From assembly GCA_016928835.1 (NCBI GenBank), contig JAFGJW010000001.1:1-64000 (forward strand): 64,000 nucleotides of DNA, given 5' to 3'. The position numbers were made by a program, and so were the translations under genes. A model generated the notes under the pieces. That model was given only the letters and a program-made list of their open reading frames with translations, made no database searches and was not told where the DNA came from. This document shows, one piece after another, positions 51,231 through 62,943 of this stretch (positions are counted from its first letter, which is position 1; every line of letters begins with the position of its first letter). This DNA is from Candidatus Woesearchaeota archaeon. GTDB lineage: Archaea; Nanobdellota; Nanobdellia; Woesearchaeales; GW2011-AR15.

Positions 51231-52538
51231 ATGGAATATTCTGCAGGAGATAGGATAAGGATAACAACTGAAAAAGAAACTTTGGAAGGAACTTTAATGC
51301 CTACTCCTGAGCTTCAGGAGAAGAAGGTTGTTATAATAAAGCTTAATAATGGTTATAATATCGGTATTGCAAATAATAAGATTAAGAAGATTGAACTAAT
51401 CAAAAAATACAAAGTAAAAAAGTCTAATAAAGAGAAGGCCAGTACAAAAAAAGGTCTCCCCACCATCTCAATTCTGCATACCGGCGGAACAATTGCATCC
51501 AAGGTAGATTATCAGACGGGAGGTGTTATTGCCAGGTTCACTCCAAAGGAGATTCTTGGGCAATTTCCAGAATTGGTATCAATAGCCAATATCAAAAGCA
51601 GGTTAGTGAGGAATATGTTCTCAGAAGATATGAGATTTGCACACTACAACCTGATTGCAGAGGAGATAAAAAAAGAGATAGGGGGAGGCACAAAAGGGAT
51701 TATAATAACACATGGCACAGACACTCTTCATTATTCTTCAGCAGCACTTGCCTTTATACTAGAAGGATTGAGCATTCCTATTGTCCTTGTTGGCGCACAG
51801 AGATCTTCTGACCGGGGAAGTTCAGATGCAGGCATGAATCTAGTTTGCGCAGCAAAGTTCATTGCAAATACTGATTTTGCAGAAGTTGCGATTTGTATGC
51901 ACTCAAGTATGAGTGATGATTTTTGCTATATCTTGCCAGCAACAAAATCACGAAAATTGCATACATCTAGGAGAGATGCGTTTCAACCAATTAATGACAA
52001 ACCCTGGGCAAAGGTATATTATGATGACAGACAAATATCTTTTATTAATAATAAATATAATAAAAGAAACAGTAAAAAGCTTAAATTGAAATTGGTAAAT
52101 CCGGATTTGAAGGTGGGAATACTTAGAGCACATCCGAACATGTCTGCTGAAGAAGTTAAGTTCTATTCTGGTTTTGACGGATTGGTATTGGAGGGAACAG
52201 GTCTTGGTCAGTTTCCTGTTTCAGAGATTGATAAATATACTAAGGAACACACTGAAATACTTAGCGCCATTAAAAAACTGATAGATACAGGAACTATTGT
52301 TGTAATGGCTCCGCAGACAATCTTTGGAAGAATCCAGATGAATGTGTATGCTTCAGGCAGAGAATTGCTCAATGTTGGTGTTCTTGGTAATTATTCTGAT
52401 ATGACTACTGAAACAACCTTCATTAAACTTGCCTGGCTCTTGTCTAATTATCCGAAAGAAAAAGTGAAAATGTTGATAGGGAAAAATCTTAGAGGGGAAA
52501 TTAATAGTAGAATTGAGCCGGAAATGTTTTTGGATTAG
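51231..52538 (+). CDS. gatD: Glutamyl-tRNA(Gln) amidotransferase subunit D
   Basis: Archaeal asparaginase-like subunit that feeds ammonia to GatE for making Gln-tRNA(Gln). 435 residues: an N-terminal beta domain (~1-60, AGDRIRITTEKETLEGTLMP) that distinguishes GatD from plain L-asparaginase, then the AnsA-type domain with LHTGGTIASKVD, THGTDT and VGAQRSSDRGSSDAGMN. The partner gatE is not in the window. Confidence 0.92.
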   Translation: MEYSAGDRIRITTEKETLEGTLMPTPELQEKKVVIIKLNNGYNIGIANNKIKKIELIKKYKVKKSNKEKASTKKGLPTISILHTGGTIASKVDYQTGGVIARFTPKEILGQFPELVSIANIKSRLVRNMFSEDMRFAHYNLIAEEIKKEIGGGTKGIIITHGTDTLHYSSAALAFILEGLSIPIVLVGAQRSSDRGSSDAGMNLVCAAKFIANTDFAEVAICMHSSMSDDFCYILPATKSRKLHTSRRDAFQPINDKPWAKVYYDDRQISFINNKYNKRNSKKLKLKLVNPDLKVGILRAHPNMSAEEVKFYSGFDGLVLEGTGLGQFPVSEIDKYTKEHTEILSAIKKLIDTGTIVVMAPQTIFGRIQMNVYASGRELLNVGVLGNYSDMTTETTFIKLAWLLSNYPKEKVKMLIGKNLRGEINSRIEPEMFLD

Positions 52539-52609
52539 TTTTTCTTCTGTTCGTGTGATAAAGTAGGATGAAGGTAAGATATTTAAACCTTAAAAATATT
52601 TTAGTATCT

Positions 52610-52741
52610 ATGGAAGCAGTGATTGCTAGATATGTTGCTGTGGAAGAATGTCCGCGATGCTCAAGTAAAAATATTACTGAGGTGAATAACTTCTTTTGTT
52701 CTATGTGTGAAGAATGCGGTCTCTTTTTTAAAAGCCTCTAG
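52610..52741 (+). CDS. Small zinc-ribbon protein
   Basis: 43 residues. CPRCSSKNITEVNNFFCSMCEECG has two CxxC pairs and an extra Cys, typical of a one-ribbon protein. TATA-like ATTTAAACC lies about 28 bases before ATG 52610, so a leaderless transcript is plausible. Its stop overlaps the convergent asnS end by four bases. Confidence 0.6.
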   Translation: MEAVIARYVAVEECPRCSSKNITEVNNFFCSMCEECGLFFKSL

Positions 52742-54033
52742 GGTATCATTCTTGTCATTGTTCTGGGAAAGGCTATAGCATCTTTTATATTATCCAAACC
52801 ACATAGCCATGCAACTACTCTCTCGACACCAACACCATATCCAGAATGGGGTACTGAGCCGTATTTCCTCAATTCAAAATACCATTCATATCTCTTTGGA
52901 TCTTCCCCTTGTTCTATTAACCTTTTTGTCATATTCTCAATATCAAGGCTTCTCTCTGAGCCCCCGATAATCTCACAGTAGCCTTCTGGGGCGAGCATGT
53001 CAAAACATAGTGCCTCCTTTGGATTCTCTTTGTTTGGCGGCTTGTAGAAACCCATTATCTCTGTAGGATAGTGTGTTACAACTACCGGCACACCATAATG
53101 ATTGGCAATCTTAGTTTCCTCAATTGTCCTTAAATCTTTCGGCCATTTGATTTTCATCTTGAATTTCTTATTGAGAAGCTCTAATGCCTCAGAGTATTTA
53201 ATGGTTGGATAATCTGTTTTTGCATAGTGCTCCAGTAGCTTGATATCTCTTTTTAGTATCTTTAACTCTTCCCTGTTGCGTGCCAATACTTCCTTGATAA
53301 TGAATCTTATTTCATCTTTTGCCACTTCTGTAACTTCATCAAGCTGCATCCAGGCAGCTTCCATCTCTGCCATCCAGAATTCTGAAAGATGTCTAGATGT
53401 CTTTGATTTTTCTGCTCTAAATGTAGGGGACATGTCATATACCTTCTCAAGTGCGAATATCGCAGCTTCGGCATAGAGCTGCCAGCTTTGCGACATATAC
53501 ATCCTTTCCTTAAAATATTTGACCTCAAATAATGTAGAGCCTCCTTCGCATTGTATGGGCTGGAAGATAGGGGGATCAAACTCAAAATAGCCCCTGCTTC
53601 TGAAAAATTCATGAATCGCCCCTACGATAGTGCTCCTGATTTTCATCACAGCAGCAATCTTCCTGCTTCTCAACCAAAGATGTTTGTTGTCTGCTAGGAA
53701 TTCGGTGGAGAAATCTTTGGTAATAGGAAACGGTTCAGCCACCTGTACAATATCCAATTCTTTTACATCAATCTCGTAACCTGTCGGGGCCCTTGATTCT
53801 TTTCTTATTGTACCAGATAATCTCAAGGAACTTTCAATAGTAAGCTTATTTGCAGTTTTCCATAAGCTACTAGCTACTTTATCCTTTTCAATTATGCATT
53901 GGATTATATTTGAAGAATCTCTCAAAACAATGAATAAAAACTGGTTAGAGCTTCTTATTCTATAAACCCAGCCCCTGAGAAAAACTTGACCTTTCCCTTT
54001 GCTTATTGCTTCTTGAATAGATGTATATTTCAT
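52738..54033 (-). CDS. asnS: Asparaginyl-tRNA synthetase
   Basis: Class IIb synthetase, 431 residues. N-terminal OB anticodon-binding domain (VFLRGWVYRIRSSNQFLFIVLRD), motif 2 SPTFRAEKSKTSRHLSEFWMAEME and motif 3 GYGVGVERVVAWLCGL. FDMLAPEGYCEIIGGSER favours Asn over Asp activity. With AsnA next door and GatD nearby, this locus covers free asparagine synthesis and its direct use in translation. Confidence 0.92.
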   Translation of the reverse strand: MKYTSIQEAISKGKGQVFLRGWVYRIRSSNQFLFIVLRDSSNIIQCIIEKDKVASSLWKTANKLTIESSLRLSGTIRKESRAPTGYEIDVKELDIVQVAEPFPITKDFSTEFLADNKHLWLRSRKIAAVMKIRSTIVGAIHEFFRSRGYFEFDPPIFQPIQCEGGSTLFEVKYFKERMYMSQSWQLYAEAAIFALEKVYDMSPTFRAEKSKTSRHLSEFWMAEMEAAWMQLDEVTEVAKDEIRFIIKEVLARNREELKILKRDIKLLEHYAKTDYPTIKYSEALELLNKKFKMKIKWPKDLRTIEETKIANHYGVPVVVTHYPTEIMGFYKPPNKENPKEALCFDMLAPEGYCEIIGGSERSLDIENMTKRLIEQGEDPKRYEWYFELRKYGSVPHSGYGVGVERVVAWLCGLDNIKDAIAFPRTMTRMIP

Positions 54034-54086
54034 TGGTTACACCTTGATTTCAATAGTAAATAAGCAAAATATTAAAAACTTTTTTG

Positions 54087-55148
54087 TTATAATAGCTGAA
54101 TTCGCTTCTCTTCACATACCTTTCTCATCCAGTCAGGCCATATTCCGCAATGCACTTCTCCAATATGAGCCTTTCTTAGATAAAACATAAAATGTCTGGA
54201 TTGTCCTATGCCTCCGCCTATTGTTAGTGGAAACTCTCCTTTTAATAGTCTTTTATGCCAGAGTAAGTCTTTTTTATGCTCTGCACTGGTTATAATTAAT
54301 TGCTTTTCTAAAATGCCTTTATCTACTCTTATCCCCATTGAAGTAAGTTCAAGAGCTGTCTTCAAAATTGGATGCCAGACTAAAATATCCCCATTTAATC
54401 CTTTATAATCTCTTATAGTTGGAGTTGTCCAGTCATCATAATCCGGCGCTCTTACATCATGTGGTTTGCCATCCTTTAACTCTGCACCGATGCCAATAAT
54501 GAAAACAGCACCATATTCTCTGCACGCAGAATCCTCTCTCTGTTTCGCGCTTGTCCCTGGATATTTTTCAAGCAATTCTTCACTGTGAATAAATTTGATT
54601 TTTTCTGGTAGTATGGGAGTAATATCTCTGTAGTTCATATAAGTGTATAGTTCAGTTTTTTTAATTACTTTGTATATTCTTCTCACAATCTCTTTTAGGT
54701 ATGCAAGAGTTCTTTCCTCTCTACTTATTACTCTCTCCCAATCCCACTGGTCAACAAATATTGAATGCAAACTGGTTAATTTCTCGTGGGACCTTATTGC
54801 ATGCATATCTACAAATAACCCTTCTCCATGTTTAAATCCATAATCAGCCAAAGCCATTCTCTTCCACTTTGTCACAGCTTGCACTATCTCAATATCAGAA
54901 TTAATGTCAGGGGTGATGAAGGAGACGGGCTTTTCTGCGCCTGTTAAATCATCATTTATGCCTGTCTCTGCCGCCAAAAAAAGAGGCCCCCGTATTTTTT
55001 TCAAATTGAGCTCTCTGGCCAATTGCTTATCATAGAAATCTTTTATTTCCGTAACGGCAACCTGGGTCTCTCTTCTATCCAAAATTGGACAATAATCTTC
55101 TGGGATGATTAATCCATTATTTTTTGGTACCAGTTTTTGTTTTTCCAT
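54087..55148 (-). CDS. asnA: Aspartate-ammonia ligase
   Basis: Makes asparagine from aspartate, ammonia and ATP; class II synthetase-like fold. 353 residues with VQAVTKWKRMALADYGF, DMHAIRSHE, HSIFVDQWDWE and TIGGGIGQSRHFMFYL, all typical of AsnA. Divergent from an Lrp/AsnC regulator at 55410, the arrangement known from asnC-asnA in bacteria. Confidence 0.92.
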   Translation of the reverse strand: MEKQKLVPKNNGLIIPEDYCPILDRRETQVAVTEIKDFYDKQLARELNLKKIRGPLFLAAETGINDDLTGAEKPVSFITPDINSDIEIVQAVTKWKRMALADYGFKHGEGLFVDMHAIRSHEKLTSLHSIFVDQWDWERVISREERTLAYLKEIVRRIYKVIKKTELYTYMNYRDITPILPEKIKFIHSEELLEKYPGTSAKQREDSACREYGAVFIIGIGAELKDGKPHDVRAPDYDDWTTPTIRDYKGLNGDILVWHPILKTALELTSMGIRVDKGILEKQLIITSAEHKKDLLWHKRLLKGEFPLTIGGGIGQSRHFMFYLRKAHIGEVHCGIWPDWMRKVCEEKRIQLL

Positions 55149-59341: not shown

Positions 59342-60343
59342 TTAGTATTTTTGTTTTTTGGAGCCGCCATCTAATGCTAGACTAAAAATTTTTAATATCA
59401 AATCCTCAAAAGAGTATCCAAATGCTTTTGCTGATCTAACAAACCCGCTGTCATGTGGATTAATGCCTGGGTTTGGATTTACTTCAAGGACATATGGTTC
59501 ATTATCTTTTACTCTAAAGTCAACCCTTGCGTATCCTTTGCATTTCATTATCTTAAAGCATTTAATTGCCAGTTCTTCAATCTTCTTTCTCAACTCTGAG
59601 TTAACTTCAGCAGGGCATTTTCCAGTTGACATTTTATAAAGTACAGAGCTCTCAATCCACTTTGCCTCAAACGGCAGGAATTTTGGAATGTTTTTAGGAA
59701 AATCAAATATTATTTCAGATAGAGGCAGCACAACTACATCTGAAGCTGTTCCGATCAATGCAGCATTTATTTCTCTGCCATCAATAAACTCTTCAACCAA
59801 AGCCGGCTGTTTATATAAATTCAGAACTTCCTTGACCTTTCTTTTAAGTTGTTTTGCATCAACAACATAAGAATTAAGTGTTATCCCAATGCTAGCATCC
59901 TCATTGACTGGCTTGACAATTAGCGGGTACATAAGGCCTTTTGCTTCTTGATTTTCGGACTGGAAAATCTGGAAATTTGGTGTTGTTATCTTGTTATTGA
60001 CCAGGATTTCTTTTGTTTTCTTTTTATCAAGGCACGTTGAAAGACAATTGCTATTATTTCCAGTAAAAGGAATGCATATCTTCTCAAGAAGTTCAGCAAT
60101 CTCTGCCTCTCCACTTGGCCTATCATCAATGCCCTCTGCTAAATTAAATATACAATCATACTTTCCCTTTAAAAGTTCGGATAAACAACTATCTACTCTT
60201 ACTAAGTCACAATCATGGCCCCTACTGATAAATACATGCTTTACTGCTTCAGCAGTAACCAGAATCTCATTATCAGCGATTTTTTCTTCTTCTTTCCTTG
60301 CTTTTGTGTCTTCGACTAGGTTATATATTACTGCTATTTGCAT
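59342..60343 (-). CDS. ATP-grasp ligase, D-Ala-D-Ala ligase-like
   Basis: 333 residues from ATG 60343 (MQIAVIYNLVEDTK); the longer start lies inside the upstream gene. FNLAEGIDDRPSGEAEIAELLE, IPFTGNN, LDKKKTKEIL, PLIVKPVNEDASIGI, EEFIDGREI, ARVDFRV and VLEVNPNPGINP are the ordered ATP-grasp and Ddl motifs; metal-binding acidic residues and the Asn-x-Pro-Gly end are present. Overlaps the fusion gene by 23 bases. It should join an amino acid or carboxylate to an amine; the substrate is unknown. Confidence 0.85.
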   Translation of the reverse strand: MQIAVIYNLVEDTKARKEEEKIADNEILVTAEAVKHVFISRGHDCDLVRVDSCLSELLKGKYDCIFNLAEGIDDRPSGEAEIAELLEKICIPFTGNNSNCLSTCLDKKKTKEILVNNKITTPNFQIFQSENQEAKGLMYPLIVKPVNEDASIGITLNSYVVDAKQLKRKVKEVLNLYKQPALVEEFIDGREINAALIGTASDVVVLPLSEIIFDFPKNIPKFLPFEAKWIESSVLYKMSTGKCPAEVNSELRKKIEELAIKCFKIMKCKGYARVDFRVKDNEPYVLEVNPNPGINPHDSGFVRSAKAFGYSFEDLILKIFSLALDGGSKKQKY

Positions 60344-62405
60344 TGAGTTGTACCTTTTTAACCGCTGTTGCCAAACCATTTCTTTTAACTGCTTCGTTGA
60401 ACACAGTATTTATAATTTCGTCATATGACATTCCGGCAGTAAAACATGATTTTGGAAACCTTGAGTTTTCTTTTGGATCGGGCATAAGTCCTGGAAGCGC
60501 GTTGACATCAATTACATTTGGGGTCCCCCTATTGTCAAGCCTGAGGTCCATCCTGCATAGGTCGACACAACCCAGGGCAGCATAGGCTTTTAGTGCAGTA
60601 TTTTTAATTTTTCTTTCAAGGTCTCTTGTGATTTTTGCAGGGCACACAATGGGGTCTATTGGATTATTTGGGTTGTCCCAATACCACTTTACTTCATACG
60701 AATCAAATTTTTGTATGCCTTCCGGCAGGTAGTCAAATGTAATCTCCACGATAGGAAGGACTCTTGGTGGGTTGTTGCCGATAATACCAACAGTAAACTC
60801 TCTTCCTTCCAAAAACTCTTCAGCAAGAGCAGGTTGTTTATAATCCTTAATTACAGTTCTCACTCTCTCCTTTAGTTCCTCTTCGTTAAAAACAAGAGAA
60901 TTGTTTTTTATCCCTTTTGATGACCCTTCTGCATTTGGTTTTACAATTAATGGGAAACTTAAATTGCTGTCGATCTTCTGGTTCCAATGTGCAAACAGCT
61001 GATACTTTGGTGTGGCAATTCCATGATACAACAAAATCTCCTTAGTTCTTTTCTTGTCCAATGTAACTGCCTGTGTCAAAATTCCTGAACCAGTGTACGG
61101 GATTTTTAGCATTTCAAGGATTGCAGGGATTTGGCTTTCTCTTGACTCGCCATGTAGGCCTTCTGCAATATTGAAAACAAAGTCGTAATTACCTGCTTTC
61201 ATCTTTTCATAAAAGTCTTCATCTGCCTCAACAAGTTCTGCATAGTGTCCCTGTTTTTCTAATGCTTGTTTAATTGCCTGTGGGACTGTAATTTCGTCAA
61301 ACTCAGCATAAAAATCATCAGGGATGTCTTTTTCAGGAAATTTCTTTAAATTAAACACAACAGCAATTTTCAGTGCATCTTTTTCTGTTTTTTCTGTTTT
61401 TATTCTTGGATTAGTGTATTCAATTATTTTTCCCTCAAAGTTCTTTAGGATTATTTTTTCCCTATTTTTATACTGGACATAATCTGGAAGAACTGGGATT
61501 TTTCCTCCCCCATAAGAATCGATTATGTACTGAGGGATGCAAAGCCCTGAAGTAAAACCGGTTAGGTTCTCAATAATGTCCATCCCTTCCTGGACAGATG
61601 TTCTGAAATGATCAGTTCCCTTCACCTGATCTGCTTGGTACATGTAGTATGGCTTTACCCGGATTTTCAGTAGCCTATGGAACAATTCCTTCATGACTTC
61701 TGGACTGTCATTAACCCCTTTTAAAACTATACACTGGTTTCCAAGGGGGATACCAGCTTCTGCGAGCATCTTGCATGCACGGCTGCTCTCAGGAGTTATT
61801 TCTAACGGATGCTCAAAATGTAGGTTCATATAAAGCGGATGATATCTTTTCAGAATATTGCAGAGATGCTTTGTGACTCTTGTTGGCAAGGAGCATGGCA
61901 CTCTTGTTCCAATCCTAATTATCTCAACATGTTCAATTGCCCTTAGTTTTTTAAGGATAAATTCCAACAGAGAATCTTTAAGCATTAAAGGATCTCCACC
62001 TGAAACAATAACATCTCTGATTTCTTTATGATCCTTTATATAATTCATTGCATTCAACAAGTGCTCTTTTGTTATGTCAACCTGTCTTCCGACTTTTCTT
62101 TTACGGGTGCAGAACCTGCAGTACATAGCGCACTTATTGCTAACTAAAAACAATGCCCTGTCTGGATACCTGTGAACTAGAAACGGGACAGGCGTGTGGC
62201 TCTCTTCATGCAGGGGATCTTCTTCATTGACAGTGTCATTTAGTTCCTCAATGCTAGGAATGCACTGTTTCCATATAGGATCATTCTTCTCTTTTATCAA
62301 GCTAAGATAATAGCTATTAACCTTCATTGGGTATCTTCTTTTTACCCTTTCAATATCTTTTATTTCTTTATTTGACAAATTAAATCTGCTATACAGCTGC
62401 TTCAT
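60321..62405 (-). CDS. Lysine 2,3-aminomutase fused to a D-Ala-D-Ala-type ATP-grasp ligase
   Basis: 694 residues. Residues 1-~335 are a radical-SAM aminomutase: CAMYCRFC (Cys92, 96, 99), SGGDPLML, YQADQVKG with Asp259 and IIDSYGGGKIP with Asp296 and Lys302, corresponding to the two lysine-binding aspartates and the PLP lysine of known enzymes, so L-lysine to L-beta-lysine is the likely reaction. Residues ~346-690 are a second Ddl-like ATP-grasp (FNIAEGLHGESRESQIPAILE, KPNAEGSSKGI, EEFLEGREFTVGII, RMDLRLD, DVNALPGLMPD). GGAGG lies nine bases before the ATG. Confidence 0.9.
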   Translation of the reverse strand: MKQLYSRFNLSNKEIKDIERVKRRYPMKVNSYYLSLIKEKNDPIWKQCIPSIEELNDTVNEEDPLHEESHTPVPFLVHRYPDRALFLVSNKCAMYCRFCTRKRKVGRQVDITKEHLLNAMNYIKDHKEIRDVIVSGGDPLMLKDSLLEFILKKLRAIEHVEIIRIGTRVPCSLPTRVTKHLCNILKRYHPLYMNLHFEHPLEITPESSRACKMLAEAGIPLGNQCIVLKGVNDSPEVMKELFHRLLKIRVKPYYMYQADQVKGTDHFRTSVQEGMDIIENLTGFTSGLCIPQYIIDSYGGGKIPVLPDYVQYKNREKIILKNFEGKIIEYTNPRIKTEKTEKDALKIAVVFNLKKFPEKDIPDDFYAEFDEITVPQAIKQALEKQGHYAELVEADEDFYEKMKAGNYDFVFNIAEGLHGESRESQIPAILEMLKIPYTGSGILTQAVTLDKKRTKEILLYHGIATPKYQLFAHWNQKIDSNLSFPLIVKPNAEGSSKGIKNNSLVFNEEELKERVRTVIKDYKQPALAEEFLEGREFTVGIIGNNPPRVLPIVEITFDYLPEGIQKFDSYEVKWYWDNPNNPIDPIVCPAKITRDLERKIKNTALKAYAALGCVDLCRMDLRLDNRGTPNVIDVNALPGLMPDPKENSRFPKSCFTAGMSYDEIINTVFNEAVKRNGLATAVKKVQLNANSSNI

Positions 62406-62589
62406 TGCTAAATGCCTCCTTTGTTATTATATAATTCAGGTATTGATTAGGATTAAGAAAGAATCTAACTATAACTCTTAAGTGTCCAATACAAACTAGA
62501 AATAAAAAGCCACATCCGCCCCAGAGGAACTTCCAGTAGCTTTTCGGAACGTCCAGCAGTCTTCTCTTCATCTTTCCTTTACCGGACAT
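62389..62589 (-). CDS. Doubtful small basic membrane peptide upstream of the fusion gene
   Basis: 66 codons, MSGKGKMKRRLLDVPKSYWK, then a hydrophobic stretch with WGGCGFLFLVCIG. A weak AAAGGAAAG lies before an internal Met (codon 7). It overlaps the fusion gene's start and its ribosome-binding site by 17 bases, which argues against it. Kept as low-confidence because it lies in the operon and has a coherent membrane helix. Confidence 0.25.
   Translation of the reverse strand: MSGKGKMKRRLLDVPKSYWKFLWGGCGFLFLVCIGHLRVIVRFFLNPNQYLNYIITKEAFSNEAAV
62426..62435 (-). promoter_or_regulatory. TATA box candidate for the KAM-ATP-grasp gene
   Basis: ATTATATAAT centred about 25 bases upstream of ATG 62405. 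A ribosome-binding site at 62415-62419 also exists, so the gene may be read both from its own promoter and from the peptide transcript upstream. Confidence 0.4.
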
Positions 62590-62702: not shown

Positions 62703-62786
62703 TTACCAATCGTCTTCGTCGTCATCATCGCCTGAGTCATACTCTTCTTCATCTTCATATTCTTCGTATTCTTCTTCATATGCCAT
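62703..62786 (-). CDS. 27-residue highly acidic peptide ending in Trp
   Basis: The product consists of Met-Ala, four Tyr set among Glu runs (YEEEYEEYEDEEEYD), one Ser-Gly, then DDDDEDDW and stop: 19 of 27 residues are Asp or Glu, with no basic residue. A near-perfect ribosome-binding site (GGAGGT, complement of 62795-62800) lies eight bases before ATG 62786, so it is very probably translated. It follows the zinc-ribbon peptide gene by 19 bases. The acidic C-terminus with Trp recalls the EDWGE end of LysW amino-group carriers; alternatively it is a precursor or a small binding protein. Confidence 0.7.
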   Translation of the reverse strand: MAYEEEYEEYEDEEEYDSGDDDDEDDW

Positions 62787-62794
62787 TCTATTCA

Positions 62795-62800
62795 ACCTCC
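62795..62800 (-). promoter_or_regulatory. Strong ribosome-binding site of the acidic peptide gene
   Basis: GGAGGT on the minus strand, eight bases before ATG 62786. Most genes in this window have weak or no such sites, so its strength argues for high translation of a 27-residue product. Confidence 0.75.
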
Positions 62801-62805
62801 TTGTT

Positions 62806-62943
62806 TTATAGTGGTTTACCGCAATGCGGGCATATTATTGAAAACCCCTCTATAATCGCTTTCTCTTCAATCTTTCTCCTGCAGTGTTTGCAGATAATGA
62901 TCTCCACAGCATTACTCTTTGAAACAGAGTTGCTAATGCCCAT
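62806..62943 (-). CDS. 45-residue zinc-ribbon peptide
   Basis: CKHCRRKIEEKAIIEGFSII then CPHCGKPL: two CxxC pairs 20 residues apart, a single zinc ribbon after an 18-residue polar N-terminus. TATA-rich TTTATATATATAAT centred about 25 bases upstream of ATG 62943 fits a leaderless start. The spacing of the two CxxC pairs resembles the globular part of LysW, which normally continues into an acidic tail; here the acidic part is a separate gene directly downstream. Confidence 0.7.
   Translation of the reverse strand: MGISNSVSKSNAVEIIICKHCRRKIEEKAIIEGFSIICPHCGKPL

Follow-up and report, generated by a model that had tools for sequence, protein, structure and literature searches.

A fused lysine 2,3-aminomutase and ATP-grasp ligase in a woesearchaeal archaeon points to a possible pathway for small beta-lysine peptides

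The stretch of DNA analyzed here, the first 64,000 nucleotides of contig JAFGJW010000001.1 from a Candidatus Woesearchaeota archaeon (hereafter the window), contains a gene that encodes a lysine 2,3-aminomutase (KAM) and an ATP-grasp ligase of the D-alanine-D-alanine ligase (Ddl) type in a single 694-residue open reading frame (ORF) without interruption. The original prediction had given the coordinates of this gene correctly, and only its strand had to be changed, to minus (Table 1). That both enzymes lie in one chain, as had also been claimed, is borne out by a Pfam search, in which the families Radical_SAM (residues 88-236), LAM_C (278-343, covering the first 67 of 127 profile positions) and Dala_Dala_lig_C (473-668) all match the one protein. 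The nearest solved structures likewise divide it into two halves, namely the KAM 2A5H over residues 8-334 and Ddl enzymes over residues 375-672. A strong Shine-Dalgarno sequence, AAAGGAGG, is located shortly 5' of the ATG at 62405. The fusion gene is followed on the same strand by a second ligase gene, which likely starts at the ATG at 60343 and so overlaps it by 23 nt, and then by the gene for a 440-residue protein related to MurL. An AlphaFold2 (AF2) model of the whole fusion, built from a six-row alignment, reached a pLDDT of 50 and is too poor for the docking of the two domains to be judged. Direct transfer of the beta-amino acid from mutase to ligase, as originally suggested, may occur in the fusion, but many lineages have the two enzymes as separate proteins.

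Table 1. The fusion gene, its parts and the neighboring genes in the window.
Feature	Positions	Strand	Basis
Fused KAM / Ddl-type ATP-grasp ligase, 694 aa	60321..62405	-	ORF and translation, Pfam, five homologous full-length fusions
KAM half, residues 1-340 (C92, C96, C99, D259, D296, K302)	61386..62405	-	2A5H match (E 8e-113), residue mapping
ATP-grasp ligase half, DdlF type, residues 345-694	60321..61373	-	PF07478 (E 2.6e-35), catalytic residues conserved
Shine-Dalgarno AAAGGAGG, ahead of the ATG at 62405	62415..62422	-	Read from the sequence
Second Ddl-like ATP-grasp ligase, Ddl2 type	59342..60379	-	PF07478 (E 7.6e-34)
MurL-like PP-loop protein (motif SFGKDS), putative ATP-dependent peptide epimerase, 440 aa	57715..59037	-	NCBIfam MurL NF041275, AF2 model

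Two very small ORFs are situated 5' of the fusion gene on the minus strand (62703-62943), one with a zinc-ribbon look (CxxC...CxxC) and the other encoding a highly acidic peptide of about 27 residues, and a search for structured RNA 5' of the operon gave only sub-threshold snoRNA matches, which we take to be chance. Elsewhere in the window (51231-55148) there is an asparagine-related cluster that comprises an asparaginase-like ORF, recognized by eye, an asparaginyl-tRNA synthetase and the aspartate-ammonia ligase AsnA.

The aminomutase half, which is the only KAM in the window genome, was said to have kept the three cysteines of the cluster, the PLP lysine and the two aspartates that bind lysine, and mapping to 2A5H agrees. 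The cluster motif CxxxCxxC is present as C92/C96/C99, and D259, D296 and K302 align to D293, D330 and K337 of 2A5H, of which we take the two aspartates to bind the side chain of lysine and K302 to be the PLP lysine. Both aspartates are kept across the clusters described below in all but two of the KAM sequences that are long enough to read, and the kept residues favor lysine as the substrate of the mutase. These residues, together with the cysteines of the 4Fe-4S cluster, are shared with AblA (TIGR03820; 2A5H), but in contrast to AblA the window enzyme has a reduced tail, lacking the CxCxxC motif, with the ligase in its place. Moreover, its score against the AblA equivalog TIGR03820 is 456.3 bits where the cut-off is 525.4, and hence it is best described as a predicted lysine-type KAM that is not filed as AblA.

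The ligase half was predicted to retain ordered Ddl motifs, which holds for the catalytic ATP-grasp residues (K451, K489, S495, E529, E536, R618, D620 and N635, with K451, K489, E529, R618, D620 and N635 conserved across the ligase family) but not for the whole substrate site. Within the substrate triad of Ddl (E15/S150/Y216), the equivalents of the first two are kept as E368 and S495, and the position of Y216 is occupied by W574. E368 was assigned by eye, since E15 precedes the start of the Ddl sequence taken for comparison. In the second ligase, which is 36-37% identical to the fused one, the S150 position is Ala and the Y216 position is again Trp, as it is in 89 of 92 aligned rows. Since Trp replaces the active-site Tyr, the fused enzyme is probably not a D-Ala ligase despite the family and catalytic residues that it shares with Ddl, from which it differs further in scoring below the Ddl cut-offs listed in NCBIfam. 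The window genome has two strong Ddl-type ligases and no Mur ligase (PF08245, which is detected in 12 of 14 control genomes), and therefore these Ddl-like genes do not serve a normal peptidoglycan pathway. A role in peptidoglycan or pseudomurein was rejected for lack of a Mur ligase, and it is very unlikely that the pair makes D-Ala-D-Ala for a wall.

Some ATP-grasp enzymes, RimK and LysX among them, have proteins as their substrates, and the second ligase also matches the RimK profile (E 3e-10), as might be expected if the acceptor of beta-lysine were not a free amino acid but a macromolecule, either a protein or a carrier, in the way that EpmA modifies EF-P. We regard this as quite improbable, however, as both ligases are matched best by Ddl enzymes, which act on free amino acids, and no recurrent carrier protein is seen in the loci considered below. 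As both ligases lack part of the Ddl substrate site and the genome has no Mur ligase, we read the pair as candidate ligases of a small beta-lysine peptide.

The fusion recurs in about ten genomes, from Woesearchaeales-like members of the DPANN archaea, Thermoplasmatota and one Spirochaetales metagenome-assembled genome (MAG). Full-length fusions are found in G001, G045, G166, G168 and G280, genomes from the taxonomic order to which the window belongs, and the fusion is also present in MAGs from Methanomethylophilaceae (L085), Thermoplasmatota (L087) and Spirochaetales (L090). Five full-length relatives align end to end with the window protein at 62-71% identity, which rules out a missed stop or an assembly join. 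In one further locus (L037; G008:C133, 1242-3328) the gene is split into overlapping frames of 541 and 168 residues by a frameshift or an assembly error. In a quick tree the fused KAM halves form one clade (SH-aLRT 98), and in the ligase tree the fused ligase halves do so as well (99/93), with two additional rows nested among the latter, a ligase that is cut by a contig end (L089) and a stand-alone Lokiarchaeal ligase. These trees are most simply read as one origin of the fusion followed by later spread. In G280 the fusion gene and two more ligase genes are followed, on the same strand, by a gene that looks like a methyltransferase and by eye resembles EgtD (L069, 14274-15206).

The association between KAM and ligase extends well beyond the fused proteins. 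When the genome_contigs collection was scanned with an alignment of the ligase, more than 570 relatives were found, and the best 80 loci were kept, 71 of which were counted as having a clear ligase ORF and not repeating a locus already in the set. A second ligase is found within 3 kb of the first in 59 of these 71 loci and a KAM within 3 kb in 42, where a rough estimate, assuming one or a few KAM genes per genome of some megabases, is that chance would place a KAM there in about 1% of loci or fewer. The linkage is seen in Bathyarchaeota, Nezhaarchaeota, Altiarchaeales, Nitrospinae, Desulfuromonadales, Ignavibacteria, Kryptonia and DPANN, and in the Bathyarchaeota and Nezhaarchaeota the KAM gene is directly 5' of the ligase, the same order as in the fusion. 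Most of the ligase-linked KAMs form one branch (95, quick tree) apart from both the annotated AblA rows and the Lokiarchaeal KAM. Given the apparently single origin of the fusion and the adjacency of the separate genes across bacterial and archaeal phyla, a functional link between KAM and ligase is well supported by these comparisons.

A quite different view is that the two are fused for co-expression only, such that KAM serves in the breakdown or supply of lysine and the ligase joins unrelated amino acids. Some relatives do have KAM without a ligase nearby or the ligase pair without a nearby KAM, which also counts against the pathway proposed below, and the Lokiarchaeal KAM has neighbors suggestive of a lysine fermentation operon. 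Yet repeated adjacency in distant phyla and a clade of fusions that is seen in both halves would be difficult to account for unless the two enzymes shared a pathway, and we consider co-expression by itself to be unlikely. Lysine 5,6-aminomutase gave no match in the window genome and none in the control genomes either, so that lysine fermentation is still a possibility. KAM-less ligase pairs are found in many Deltaproteobacteria, next to genes that resemble pyruvoyl arginine decarboxylase, agmatinase or deoxyhypusine synthase, and these loci possibly represent a polyamine version of the pathway. A KAM is located elsewhere in 18 of 20 genomes without a nearby one, a count that for want of a control set is weak evidence of co-occurrence, and where checked the distant KAMs of the Deltaproteobacterial genomes belong to a different KAM branch. 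The ligase pair, often with a GNAT, also adjoins a methyltransferase-like gene in L107, L109, L110, L121, L124, L141 and similar Deltaproteobacterial loci. In DPANN genomes of the same class (L180-L184), solitary KAMs that belong to the ligase-linked branch have no ligase in their vicinity. In L050-L053 and L078-L080 there is a related Ddl-like gene but no KAM, and next come one or two members of a family of about 300 residues that has no Pfam match and is FemAB-like by eye.

The third gene of the window cluster encodes the MurL-like protein. MurL itself needs ATP and releases AMP as it inverts the residue at the end of a peptide precursor (PMC5808125). The NCBIfam MurL profile NF041275 is matched by 11 of 13 members of the window protein's family (best E 3e-12), albeit far below the 700-bit equivalog cut-off, and the window protein, which has no Pfam match, has an E-value of 0.0015, so its assignment taken alone is weak. 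Its AF2 model is confident (pLDDT 91) and bears a weak likeness to PP-loop enzymes, QueC and MnmA among them (Foldseek, best E 1.6e-3). Unlike MurL, the window protein occurs with KAM and ligases and without a peptidoglycan pathway. In Woesearchaeales-like genomes a MurL homologue joins the set, often together with either a decarboxylase of the LysA type or an additional ATP-grasp enzyme, and relatives that lack the fusion contain varying subsets of ligase, ligase, MurL-like protein, ATP-grasp_4 protein, LysA-type PLP decarboxylase and KAM. MurL is not a general partner, as it is found in only one of the 71 wider loci and one of eight related genomes, and is mainly a DPANN addition. Similarly, the LysA-type decarboxylase is present in several relatives and was not found in the window genome, and was rejected as an obligatory partner.

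The original prediction also held that AblB, the acetyltransferase that usually accompanies KAM in archaea, is absent, and this stands, as the sole match in the window genome reaches 22 bits, where the cut-off, passed by 3 of 14 control genomes, is 205. What has to be added is that other GNATs are found in the clusters of relatives. A GNAT of one family is located within 4 kb of the ligase in 33 of the 71 loci, in many bacterial relatives a GNAT family other than AblB has the second ligase on one side and KAM on the other, and the second ligase of Thermoplasmatota and Lokiarchaeota carries a GNAT fused to it, so that the Thermoplasmatota set consists of two proteins, KAM=ligase and ligase=GNAT. 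Because a GNAT adjoins KAM and the second ligase, or is fused, in these relatives, the pathway in its wider form may include an acetylation step, although the six GNATs of the window genome are elsewhere and none is adjacent to the fusion cluster. The AblAB system, which makes N-epsilon-acetyl-beta-lysine, also starts from KAM, but the window cluster has two peptide-type ligases and no AblB. It is possible, though in our view rather doubtful, that the cluster makes a compatible solute by a variant of the AblAB route, either N-acetylated beta-lysine or a beta-lysyl dipeptide, with the ATP-grasp ligases and a different GNAT replacing AblB. In addition to the frequency of the GNAT, such an osmolyte would fit the broad spread of the genes in environmental anaerobes, which suggests a housekeeping role, and no recurrent transporter or resistance gene is seen beside the core in the loci listed. 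Against this, the window has no adjacent GNAT, and the epimerase, decarboxylase and extra ligases of DPANN look like peptide tailoring. The osmolyte and a beta-lysine peptide would overlap in chemistry and differ in purpose.

We propose that the fusion is a bifunctional enzyme of a small peptide pathway that is independent of nonribosomal peptide synthetases (NRPS), a reading to which we assign a probability of roughly 0.55. The kept residues suggest that the N-terminal half would use SAM, a 4Fe-4S cluster and PLP to convert L-lysine to L-beta-lysine. The C-terminal half would spend ATP on turning a carboxylate into an acyl phosphate, which it would couple to an amine, and both the fusion and the gene linkage point to beta-lysine as one partner, either donor or acceptor. 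The overlapping second ligase would add another residue and, judging from its homology, the MurL-like protein would adenylate and invert the C-terminal residue of the peptide. The predicted product is a short beta-lysine-containing peptide that is probably retained inside the cell, and it may act as an osmolyte, a signal-like compound or a defensive one. What the analysis establishes is the fusion, its recurrence and the conservation of its gene neighborhood. Our confidence in the anatomy is high and that in the pathway is moderate. More tentatively, there may be a widespread and undescribed NRPS-independent pathway in archaea and bacteria that makes small beta-lysine peptides with paired Ddl-like ligases, to which the DPANN archaea would have added a MurL-type epimerase and in which one horizontally spread clade would have a single mutase-ligase enzyme that hands beta-lysine on directly.

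Each part of the cluster comes from a known family, and a search of freely accessible literature turned up no paper that pairs KAM and ATP-grasp ligases in such a role, so that on this limited evidence the combination appears to be undescribed. If the proposal is correct, beta-lysine would have a third fate beside acetylation by AblB and the modification of EF-P, and a large family now labeled 'D-Ala-D-Ala ligase' would gain a likely substrate. DPANN archaea, whose biosynthetic capacity is generally regarded as very limited, would then possess a dedicated peptide pathway. The fusion is a single protein on which the whole idea can be tested. KAM-like genes also adjoin ATP-grasp genes on plasmids of Mesorhizobium sp. 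AR10 (L084) and Rhizobium sp. NLR16a (L175), and since both lysine-binding aspartates are replaced in the enzyme from L084 (by R and I), its substrate is probably not lysine.
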